64,000 nt of DNA from an uncultured Pelagibacteraceae bacterium (GCA_902599995.1 CACKHN010000004.1:55353-119352), one strand, 5' to 3'. Shown: positions 32,821-36,056, counted from the first letter of the stretch. The notes: generated by a model from the letters alone, not told the origin. Program-made: numbers and translations.

Positions 32821-32958
32821 GACTCGAGTGAGTCAGTCCGTGGTAGTACAAGTTAGTCTTTAATATCCTATAAAATCATATAAATTAAATTTAGCTCTCA
32901 ATTAATATTAGAAAATAAAGGTTAATTAATTTGTGTAGACTTGTACTAAACTTGTACT
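32821..32958. repeat. noncoding repeat copy R1
   Basis: AGTACAAGT (32845-32853), TCCTATAAAATC, then ACTTGTACT at 32939-32947 and 32950-32958 (11-bp period). Confidence 0.75.
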
Positions 32959-32987
32959 TAAAAAGATAAAAAATTATAGTTTATTAT

Positions 32988-33827
32988 ATGAAAAAACTTT
33001 TAGGGATCGTGGTTCTAGGTTTGCTGTTGAGTGGAAACTCTAACGCTTGTGAAAAAGAGGATTTCATAAAATATATATCAGCAGGTAAAAACAAATGTAT
33101 AGCAATTTTAAATTTAGGAAAGATTGAAAAGGGTAAAAAAAACCTAATAGTATTTCTTCATGGTGACGGTAGTCCTACTTCTCCAAGACCAGGAATACCC
33201 AAAAAAAGTCAAATTAGATTTGCAAAAGAATTAATAAACGATAATAACAATATTTTTCTTTTTGCAAGACCTGGTTACTTTATTAGAGAAAGAGGCAGTA
33301 GTGAAGAGGATAGATATTCATCAGGACCTCGTAACGCTATAAAGAGTACAATAGTAAATTATGATTGGAAAAATTTTCAAATACTAGCACCTGCATTACA
33401 AAATCTTAGAAAATATTATAAACCAAAAAAACTAATTTTAATTGGTCATTCCGGAGGAGCTTATCAGGGAGGTACTATTCATGGAAAAGTACCAGGATTA
33501 GTTGATATAAATATTTTGATCTCTTGCCCGTGTGACTGGGAAATTAGAAAAAAACTAAGCAACGGTAAAAAATGGGAAACCAAATCTCAATTGAAAGAAT
33601 TAAAAAAAAACTCACCAAGTTTCAATTATAAAGATATAGATTTAAAATCTCTCAATATATTAATTGTTGGAAAAGATGATAAAAATACGGCTCCAGGAGT
33701 TTCAAAATATTATTATGATTTACTTAAAAAGAAAAAACTACAAGTTAAGTTGCATATTATTGATGGAGGCCACGGATTAAGGTCTATGCCAACAATTGGA
33801 TCTATAATTAAAGAATATATAAACTAA
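32988..33827 (+). CDS. secreted alpha/beta-hydrolase-like protein
   Basis: Signal peptide MKKLLGIVVLGLLLSGNSNA; VFLHGDGSP; LIGHSGGAYQGG; IDGGHGL. Confidence 0.65.
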   Translation: MKKLLGIVVLGLLLSGNSNACEKEDFIKYISAGKNKCIAILNLGKIEKGKKNLIVFLHGDGSPTSPRPGIPKKSQIRFAKELINDNNNIFLFARPGYFIRERGSSEEDRYSSGPRNAIKSTIVNYDWKNFQILAPALQNLRKYYKPKKLILIGHSGGAYQGGTIHGKVPGLVDINILISCPCDWEIRKKLSNGKKWETKSQLKELKKNSPSFNYKDIDLKSLNILIVGKDDKNTAPGVSKYYYDLLKKKKLQVKLHIIDGGHGLRSMPTIGSIIKEYIN

Positions 33828-34408
33828 TGAAAAAATTTTTAGGGATCGTAGTTCTGGGTTTGTTGTGGATTATTCCAGTATCAGCTGATGGAAGATTTAT
33901 TCCTTTAGAGCTTTTTACTGGTGGTGAAATAAGAAAAGATACTGAAATTAAATTTACAAATGCTAATTTGGTATTTGGAGAAAAGAAAAGAAAAAAAATT
34001 GTTGGACCTGAGAATTGGAAAAATCCTCAAACTGGAAAAACAATAAAGGTTTATAAAAGAACAAGAAAAGGCCAAAGCGGATTAAAAACACAGTTATTTA
34101 CAGTCACTAATGATGGACAGTGTATAGGTAGAGTTTGGGATAGTAGACGTGGAGGAAGAATAATAGAAAATGGATGTAAATTTCCTTTAGGGATCTGGAA
34201 AGAAGGCGAGACTAGATCATTTAAAGGTTCTTCTGGTGGCAAGCCAAGGAAAATAGAATTGACTATTTTAAAATTAGGAAAGAATCAGAAAGATAAAATA
34301 AAATTTAATTGGAAACTTTATGATGGAAGTGGAAAATTAATGGATGACAATGATTATACTTTCGCCCCTGGAAAAGCTATGACTAAGCTAAATGATAAAA
34401 AATTATAA
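33827..34408 (+). CDS. secreted hypothetical protein
   Basis: Signal peptide MKKFLGIVVLGLLWIIPVSA; overlaps the previous stop. Confidence 0.6.
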   Translation: MKKFLGIVVLGLLWIIPVSADGRFIPLELFTGGEIRKDTEIKFTNANLVFGEKKRKKIVGPENWKNPQTGKTIKVYKRTRKGQSGLKTQLFTVTNDGQCIGRVWDSRRGGRIIENGCKFPLGIWKEGETRSFKGSSGGKPRKIELTILKLGKNQKDKIKFNWKLYDGSGKLMDDNDYTFAPGKAMTKLNDKKL

Positions 34409-34510
34409 TTAATCCTGATATAGTTTACTTTAAGTTTAATCAAACAAATGGAATAAGTCCAAAATGAATAATTTGAAAAAACTTTTGGAGATTTTGGTTT
34501 TGGATTATAG

Positions 34511-34544
34511 GATTTTATAGGACAACTAGAAACAAACTAGAAAC
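34511..34544. repeat. noncoding repeat copy R4
   Basis: GATTTTATAGGA then ACTAGAAAC at 34525-34533 and 34536-34544 (11-bp period). Confidence 0.65.
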
Positions 34545-34627
34545 TATAGAGATAAAATAAAAAAAATTTACTTATTCCTCTTGTTCAATTATAAATATTG
34601 ACATAAACACTCATGAAATTCATTAAT

Positions 34628-34674
34628 GCTCTCGTGTTGAAATTGGTAGACACAAAGGACTTAAAAGCCGAGGG
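34628..34674 (+). pseudogene. decayed tRNA-Leu(TAA) copy with internal deletion
   Basis: gctctcgtgttgaaattggtagacacaaaggacttaaaa joined directly to gccgaggg; matches 5' part and acceptor end of the intact tRNA-Leu at 35971. Confidence 0.8.
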
Positions 34675-34686
34675 ATAGAAGTTAAA

Positions 34687-34813
34687 GTCAGTCTATAGTA
34701 GTCCAAGGTAGTCTAAACATCCTATAAAATCACAGAACTTTAAATTAGCTTAAAATTAATATTAGAAAAAAAGACATAATTAATTTGAGCAGACTTGGAC
34801 ATAACTTGGACAT
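34687..34813. repeat. noncoding repeat copy R2
   Basis: AGTCCAAGG (34700-34708), TCCTATAAAATC, then ACTTGGACAT at 34793-34802 and 34804-34813. Confidence 0.75.
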
Positions 34814-34869
34814 AGAGAGATAGATTTTAGTAGTTAGACTCATGGTTCAGGATTTGGTAGTCTTGGTTC

Positions 34870-35352
34870 ATGAAAATAATAATTTATTCTTTATTTTTAT
34901 CCATTCTATTTACTAACTTTAGTTTTGCAAAAACTCTCAAATGGAATTTTGAAAAATCTAGTCAAGAAAATGAATTAATAAATTGTATCAAAATTATTGA
35001 TATAAAATCTAAGAGAAGTATTTTTGACTCTGTTTCTACTATGGGTTTACTTAATGAAACTCCATTTGTAGTTAGACTTCAAAATAATTGTAGTGAACAA
35101 ATAATAGGGTCATATGATATTAAATTTTTAGATAGAGAGGGATTTGAAGTTGATAAATGGTTTTCTGACTTTAAGTTACCTAGAAAAGGTATTCAAAAAC
35201 AGACTTTTAAAGTTTTATTAGGTCCAATTAAATGGTCAAAGATAAAAAAAAATAGAGAGACATTGTTAGAATTTAATTTTGATATTCCTTTAGATAAAGA
35301 ACTGTCAAAAGAAATAGAAGCATTAAAAAAAGTTATTTATGGCAATAATTAA
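34870..35352 (+). CDS. secreted hypothetical protein
   Basis: Signal peptide MKIIIYSLFLSILFTNFSFA; no family recognised. Confidence 0.55.
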   Translation: MKIIIYSLFLSILFTNFSFAKTLKWNFEKSSQENELINCIKIIDIKSKRSIFDSVSTMGLLNETPFVVRLQNNCSEQIIGSYDIKFLDREGFEVDKWFSDFKLPRKGIQKQTFKVLLGPIKWSKIKKNRETLLEFNFDIPLDKELSKEIEALKKVIYGNN

Positions 35353-35809
35353 AAAAATTATAGTCATTTTATCTTTAACAACTTTTATTTATTCATGTTC
35401 ATCCAATCCTTACAACGTTAGCAAGGATGATGCACAAGTAGTTTTAAATACAGATACTGGAAAAATAATAGATGTTGTCCCAGTTAAAATTAAAGGAGAT
35501 CCATCAGAAATAGCAGCAACTATTGGTGGCTTAATCGGAGGCATAGCTGGACAAGATGTTGGTAGTGGAAAGGGACAAGAAATCGCTGTTATTGTAGGAT
35601 CAACAATTGGAGGTGTTGCAGGATATTATTCAACTGTGAAACTTGGTGAGCATAATGGCTTTCAATATACTATTAAAATAAATGGAGAAACAAAACCTAT
35701 TGGATTAGTTCAAGGTGCCGACAAAGAAAAAAAAGCAATATTTAAAATAGGAGATAAAGTTAGTATTGTTTATGGTGAACAAGTTAGAGTTCTTCCCTTA
35801 GATAATTAA
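35339..35809 (+). CDS. glycine-zipper outer-membrane lipoprotein (SlyB/17-kDa antigen-like)
   Basis: Lipobox YSCSS; IGGLIGGIAGQDVGSGKGQEIAVIVGSTIGGVAGYY. Confidence 0.75.
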   Translation: MAIIKKIIVILSLTTFIYSCSSNPYNVSKDDAQVVLNTDTGKIIDVVPVKIKGDPSEIAATIGGLIGGIAGQDVGSGKGQEIAVIVGSTIGGVAGYYSTVKLGEHNGFQYTIKINGETKPIGLVQGADKEKKAIFKIGDKVSIVYGEQVRVLPLDN

Positions 35810-35810
35810 A

Positions 35811-35860
35811 ATGAAAAAACTTTTAGGGATCGTGGTTCTGGGTTTTGTTATAGGATAATA
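35811..35860 (+). pseudogene. orphan signal-peptide fragment
   Basis: atgaaaaaacttttagggatcgtggttctgggttttgttatagga: near identical to starts of 32988 and 33827 genes, then stops after about 14 codons. Confidence 0.6.
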
Positions 35861-35888
35861 TGGGAGAACTTGGACATAACTTGGACAT
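35848..35888. repeat. noncoding repeat copy R3
   Basis: GTTATAGGATA then ACTTGGACAT at 35868-35877 and 35879-35888. Confidence 0.7.
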
Positions 35889-35970
35889 AGAGAGATAAAA
35901 TAAAAAAATTTTACTTATTAGACTTGTTCAATTATAAATATTAGCATAAACACTCATGAAATTCATTAAT

Positions 35971-36056
35971 GCCCTCGTGGTGAAATTGGTAGACACAAAG
36001 GACTTAAAATCCTTGCCGCTTGCGGAGTGCCAGTTCGAGTCTGGCCGAGGGCACCA
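35971..36056 (+). tRNA. tRNA-Leu(TAA)
   Basis: Acceptor GCCCTCG/CGAGGGC, anticodon loop CTTAAAA, long variable arm, T-arm GTTCGAGTC, encoded CCA. Confidence 0.95.

Follow-up and report, generated by a model that had tools for sequence, protein, structure and literature searches.

Matched repeat pairs at the ends of integrase-less tRNA-Leu(UAA) islands in SAR11-type bacteria as candidate arm-type integrase sites

The 11-bp-spaced repeat pairs described here are very likely the arm-type sites of tyrosine integrases, placed at the ends of tRNA-Leu(UAA) islands that would be mobilized in trans by rare elements. The window, that is, the whole 64-kb stretch of DNA analysed, holds one intact island of 1,343 bp and a composite remnant. 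Its source genome amounts to 947 kb, assembled into 23 contigs with a completeness of 79%, and is probably of SAR11 type, since the tRNA-Leu half agrees with pelagiphage attachment sites and a match to the rpsL sRNA occurs. An integrase-less island keeps a full attachment site: besides the tRNA upstream region and a 39-nt 5' tRNA half, it has arms on either side. In the mechanism that we propose, a rare element of ~8-10 kb with the same core and arm sequence would supply the integrase in trans. The catalytic part of this integrase would recognize the common tRNA core and its N-terminal domain the arm pair. Given the joint change of arm sequence and N-terminal domain, each integrase would be restricted to islands with a matching arm code, even where many of them are stacked at a single tRNA. 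Mobilization in trans is the best mechanism that we can infer from the observations below, and the same holds for the physical binding of the arms, for excision in trans and for a selective reason behind the codes.

SAR11-type bacteria, which rank among the ocean's most abundant cells, have streamlined genomes in which gene gain is poorly resolved. The boundaries of the islands are sharply defined, their end code can be read and candidate enzymes are available, making gene gain at this locus directly testable, and the match between their end codes and those of rare integrase elements suggests how these streamlined bacteria trade genes.

Repeat pairs and island anatomy in the window

The four repeat pairs proposed in the initial annotation are real: ACTTGTACT at 32939/32950, ACTAGAAAC at 34525/34536, and ACTTGGACAT at both 34793/34804 and 35868/35879. 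When the whole 64-kb window was scanned for exact repeats no shorter than 9 nt and containing 3 or more G/C, these four sites were the only runs of period 11, and periods 9, 10, 12 and 13 returned 1, 1, 1 and 0 runs, respectively. The 11-bp spacing and the agreement within each pair are kept in dozens of other genomes. The common element that had been pointed out, TCCTATAAAATC at ~32866 and 34720 with its inverse GGATTTTATAGGA at 34510, was likewise recovered, and the two forms correspond to invariant parts of the left and right island ends, respectively, across relatives. An upstream inverted site (AGTACAAGT/GTCCAAG), which had been thought to change in concert with the pairs, is present, but an alignment of 25 islands shows GTCCAAGG to be nearly constant whatever the pair sequence. 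Two further points of the earlier reading need correction: the pairs belong to both ends of islands, giving four copies per island, and an integrase is almost never found within the same island as the pairs.

The island parts of the window listed in this and the next paragraph all lie on the + strand. A truncated tRNA-Leu(UAA) 5' half of 39 nt (34628-34666), whose identity with the real tRNA ends at GGACTTAAAA, represents the left attachment remnant (attL core). The complete mini-island starts at the crossover and includes the whole copied tRNA half (34667-36009), and the integrase profile has no match in it. Its left end (34667-34830), defined by the alignment of 25 left ends, comprises AGTC repeats (34686-34714), CCTATAAAATC (34721-34731), an AT-rich spacer, the arm pair and AGAGAGAT. 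The left arm pair, two copies of ACTTGGACATA with 11-bp spacing (34793-34814; code ACTTGGACAT), is situated ~126 nt past the crossover. Two cargo ORFs follow, one of 160 aa with a signal-peptide-like N-terminus and without a Pfam match (34870-35352), the other of 156 aa, lipoprotein-like, with a glycine-zipper match (PF05433) slightly below the cut-off (35339-35809). At the right end are a truncated copy of a recurrent signal-peptide sequence (ATGAAAAAACTTTTAGGGATCGTGGTTCTGGG) followed by TATAGGATAATATGGGA (35811-35865), and then the right arm pair, again two copies of ACTTGGACATA (35868-35889), which is identical to the left pair of this island and is placed 103 nt ahead of the tRNA. The tRNA-Leu upstream region carried by the island (35890-35970), resembling the native region of the empty-site genomes L197 and L214, leads to the intact tRNA-Leu(UAA), which is restored at the right junction (attR; 35971-36056, ARAGORN). 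The displaced tRNA fragment and the intact tRNA are found at opposite ends of the island, as in most relatives.

Upstream of the intact island, the left end of a second one (the first copy, 32830-32960) has lost its tRNA half and contains CCTATAAAATC at 32867-32877 and two copies of ACTTGTACT at 32939-32960. It is followed by two cargo ORFs, an alpha/beta-hydrolase/Peptidase_S9-like one of 279 aa (32988-33827) and a secreted-like one of 193 aa without an assigned function (33827-34408), and then by the right end of another island, GGATTTTATAGGA with two copies of ACTAGAAAC (34510-34546). Since this right end mismatches the ACTTGTACT left end, the segment 32830-34666 is a composite remnant; we read the older unit, bordered by the copies at 32939 and 34525, as probably derived from two former islands.

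A near-identical signal-peptide sequence (ATGAAAAAACTTTTAGGGATCGTGGTTCTGGGTTT, MKKLLGIVVLG) occurs ahead of unrelated cargo genes, at 32988-33030, 33827-33869, 34473-34515 and 35811-35853 in the window and in several islands. A truncated copy of it closes seven islands, and a single gene body (ATPPKNKWSPSL) is found behind several signal-peptide variants; the recurrent sequence may serve as a recombination joint for cargo swapping. Elsewhere in the window, 50747-50837 matches the rpsL sRNA family (RF01823, 4.9e-16).

Islands of relatives and the matching of their ends

The pattern formed by the tRNA half and the left end is present in 55 of the 297 genomes of the family, and several of its hits often follow one another in tandem. 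From 57 retrieved regions and further elements, we delimited 70 islands in 56 clusters, with sizes ranging from 945 to 11,831 bp. The PF00589 model missed the integrase of the G221 element and the islands were scanned again with an integrase profile, by which 67 of the 70, the window's included, lack an integrase; elsewhere in these genomes, PF00589 detects almost only one Xer-type recombinase per genome. Empty attachment sites also exist (for instance in L197, L205 and L214). A genome-wide search with a right-end pattern was too degenerate, its controls matching in most genomes, and a scan of genome contigs with the tRNA-half pattern returned unrelated taxa alone.

Throughout the island set, the left pair is mostly located +123 to +127 nt from the crossover and the right pair mostly 102-104 nt ahead of the tRNA, so that direct repeats flank the core on both sides at fixed distance, as for arm-type sites. 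The sequence of the pairs varies between islands (ACCAGCACA, ACTAGAGCA, ACTAGACGT, ACTTGTAC, ACTGGTAC, ACAAGAGCA and others), and in the left-end alignment the AGTC repeats, CCTATAAAATC and much of the remainder are far more conserved than these variable letters. Left and right arms of the same island, taken as matching when they have at least 8 contiguous nt in common, agree in 38 of 53 non-redundant integrase-less cluster representatives. In 5,000 shuffles, the maximum was 12 matches when all ends were permuted and 17 when the permutation was kept within the end class. Approximately a quarter of the islands have no matching ends, some being composite and some eroded.

Two other repeat arrangements were noticed in the course of these comparisons. 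A separate class of islands (L076 8608-10110, L078 5856-7838, L207 and L213) carries 11-bp repeats (CTAGTGTAGTT) whose distances from the core are different. Island left ends also contain, at +23 to +53, two or three 10-bp repeats of the AGTCTCAGAC type beside the core, which are possibly excisionase sites or extra integrase sites.

Integrase-bearing elements and the protein that reads the arms

Elements with an integrase are rare, being present in 9 of 399 genomes. They are ~8-10 kb long, encode a tyrosine integrase of ~545 aa and have paired sites at the same positions as the islands. Ten were compared, nine at tRNA-Leu and one at tRNA-Ser; in most of them the sites agree between the two sides and differ from those of unrelated elements. 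The 7.8-kb G286 island encodes a 545-aa integrase (PF00589, 3.4e-10), an AlpA-like protein, an AEP primase/DUF5906 protein and a PDDEXK-type nuclease, and relatives of it are contained in IMG/VR contigs. In all six IMG/VR contigs that have this integrase and the tRNA-Leu half, the core is flanked on both sides by paired sites, with a diverged pair on the integrase side of L179; one of the contigs, L160, is circular by a 99-bp terminal repeat. Among the other contigs with a tRNA half, 16 of 17 are without such pairs on both sides, the clear exception (L168) being an integrase-less island end. The chromosomal elements G286, G602 and G221 have paired sites on both sides too. Where an element has an integrase, the integrase-side sites fall within the beginning of the integrase gene; integrase-less islands of the window's end class have these sites at the same place, generally before the first cargo gene. 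The tRNA-Ser element, L192 (G746:C2), has the same integrase family and arm pairs at the tRNA-Ser 5' half, with a ACTTGAAG right end immediately upstream.

The arms of several integrase-bearing elements exactly match those of integrase-less islands. The 8.8-kb G602 element, which belongs to the window's own end class, has two ACCAGCACA sites, 25 nt apart, inside its integrase gene start and ACCAGCACAAGACCAGCACA at its right end; ACCAGCACA is the commonest code among the integrase-less islands of that class. The G221 element bears a different code, GTTCCACAC. Arm types common to both kinds of element are ACCAGCACA (G602 and 7 islands), ACTAGAAAC (G286) and CTAGGATCT (L175 and L074), and for these three a cognate integrase-bearing element with the same att was found, but not for the window's ACTTGGACAT: searches of the 399-genome set and of viral contigs returned no integrase with this code. 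The window's own 79%-complete genome gave no integrase-bearing element, the viral contigs had no match to the window-class left-end pattern, the G602 integrase used as a query found nothing, and a relative of the 545-aa integrase is absent from the phage record collection.

Three pairs of related elements offer a natural swap experiment. Between L176 and L178, the integrase N-terminal domain is 52% identical, the rest of the protein 96% and the AlpA-like protein 97%, and the arms differ (AGTTGCCCA and AGTTACCCA). The same is seen between L175 and L181, with 78% identity in the N-terminal domain, 96% in the rest and 98% in the AlpA-like protein, and with arms CTAGGATC and CTAGGGTC. In L160 and L181, where the three values are 95%, 94% and 95%, the right-arm pair is unchanged. 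The arm sequence tracks the integrase N-terminal domain in all three cases, and the joint change of arms and N-terminal domain, while the AlpA-like protein stays at 97-98%, supports the 11-bp pairs as candidate integrase arm-type sites. This was the preferred reading of the initial annotation, which had placed such sites beside a tRNA; the site variants do follow differences between integrases, as it had asked, and specifically those of the N-terminal domain. The L179 integrase appears to be a mosaic, with an N-terminal domain nearer to G286 (77%) and a catalytic part nearer to L160 (78%), suggesting domain exchange.

Structure prediction is consistent with this assignment. In the AlphaFold model of the G602 integrase (mean pLDDT 80.7, pTM 0.48), strands are predicted at residues 57-103 and a helix at 111-125. 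A Foldseek search with this model matched the core and catalytic parts of lambda-type and Xer recombinases, together with the arm-binding domains of P4-type integrases (3jtz, 3ju0 and 3rmp), the latter with weak E values of 0.12-0.13, a probability of 1.00 and no residue ranges. These matches support a predicted arm-binding-like domain in the N-terminal region. We lean slightly towards the broader idea of a combinatorial code, in which many mutually orthogonal integrase specificities would have arisen on a single SAR11 tRNA-Leu core by rapid change or swapping of the N-terminal domain together with the arm repeats, and integrase-less islands would adopt these codes for selective movement in trans.

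The cargo also bears on mobility. The hydrolase gene at 32988-33827 has 97-98% nucleotide identity to copies in another genus of the family, and in the same comparison of genera tuf is 80% and NAD kinase 73% identical, a contrast that shows recent transfer of this cargo between genera. Transporter and phosphodiesterase-like genes (named by eye) are found behind different arm codes in two genera with 95-98% protein identity. In L168 (4939-5129), the right end of an island meets, exactly at the core, the start of an O-methyltransferase-like gene located downstream of gatB. The same 22 nt precede this gene start in G066, where there is no island (junction comparison: L084 2994-3100). The site in L168 is apparently a secondary attachment site and suggests that the island unit moves, although L168 could in principle be a chimeric assembly. 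The remainder of L168 has phage-like genes, a PhoH-like one among them by eye.

The conservation of the left ends and the permutations led us to drop two readings. That chance duplication with local slippage produced the matching pairs has a probability close to nil: an 11-bp tandem duplication is a simple event, but homologous positions differ in sequence among islands and are nonetheless usually paired and matched 1-12 kb away, and the shuffles never come near the observed left-right matching. Pairing of the repeats as RNA, which the initial annotation had offered as an alternative, or regulation of the downstream secreted-protein genes, is scarcely credible. The left end does lie 5' of a secreted-protein gene in many islands, and two of the window copies have an inverted partner; this partner, however, is invariant while the pairs vary, the pairs recur beyond the cargo, one code precedes unrelated genes, and no Rfam match was found at the pair sites.

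More serious is the proposal that the pairs bind a recombination directionality factor (RDF), i.e., an AlpA-like excisionase, rather than the integrase. Direct repeats one helical turn apart can also serve as RDF sites, a precedent being Apl of phage 186, which binds direct repeats at helical-turn spacing (PMC7498355), and the integrase-bearing elements encode an AlpA-like protein. We consider this very unlikely: the comparison of integrase domains with AlpA-like proteins weakens it, with arms differing in L176/L178 and L175/L181 where the AlpA-like protein is kept and the integrase N-terminal domain is what falls; moreover, the pair sites are symmetric about the core, and the 10-bp AGTCTC repeats close to the core make better candidates for RDF sites. 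It is also unlikely that the islands are dead relics of integrase-bearing elements which lost the gene, inherited the arms and are mobilized by nothing. Their ends are homologous to those of integrase-bearing elements, and composite or one-ended islands exist (L062, L075 and 32830-34666 of the window), but most islands have intact arm pairs, many cargoes stand behind one code, one-gene islands of ~1 kb recur in many genomes, and both the near-identical cargo gene in two genera and the island end at a secondary site speak for movement.

Relation to known mobile elements

Precedents are known for integrase-less elements moved by relatives, for tRNA islands and for marine cargo elements (PMC11389934, PMC10872708, PMC4383910). 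In the literature searched, with subscription papers mostly outside it, we found no prior description of this SAR11 island family or of a common core with a diversified arm code. As in Islander-type islands of tyrosine integrases (PMC4383910), the tRNA gene is split, the island restores the tRNA and a displaced fragment is left; here, in contrast, 67 of 70 islands have no integrase, sizes go down to 945 bp and it is the 5' half that is displaced. CALINs (PMC11389934) are similarly cassette-like arrays without an integrase and depend on one in trans, as the islands would, whereas the ends found on the islands are of the phage-type attP kind, with a tRNA core and arms, rather than attC. The resemblance to tycheposons, as described in PMC10872708, and to VEIMEs/phage satellites (PMC11389934) lies in the marine host, the tRNA target, the cargo and the viral contig sets, as well as in the tyrosine recombinase, found here in the integrase-bearing elements; most islands differ in having neither recombinase nor replication module.

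CIMEs are classically derived from ICEs. Integrase-less DNA between att sites, tandem arrays and, presumably, dependence on a related element are features that the islands have in common with CIMEs, cis-mobilizable elements and accretion at a shared att site (terms used in PMC7563491 and PMC5704250). Unlike in CIMEs, no conjugation genes were recognized here, and many different arm codes are present on one core.

At the protein level, P4-like and lambda-type integrases (PDB 3rmp, 3jtz, 1z1b) combine an arm-binding fold, predicted here for the N-terminus, with core and catalytic domains; in the present case, the core target is retained and arm specificity is diversified among close relatives. 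Nature has thereby provided a set of integrases whose arm-binding domain and sites have changed on a constant core target, which should help to explain how site-specific recombinases acquire their specificity and to design orthogonal integration tools. The pelagiphages HTVC105P/HTVC109P, which have an integrase and a tRNA-Leu attP, use the same tRNA-Leu 5' half as core (HTVC019P pelagiphage group: PMC3861242), but with another integrase, inverted arm-like sites (GAAGTAGCGGA/TCCGCTACTTC) and no 11-bp pairs. In the pelagiphages L021, L022 and L023, with a tRNA-Leu core, inverted arm-like sites also co-vary (GAAGTAGCGGA/TCCGCTACTTC and GTAGGAGCGGA/TCCGCTCCTAC).
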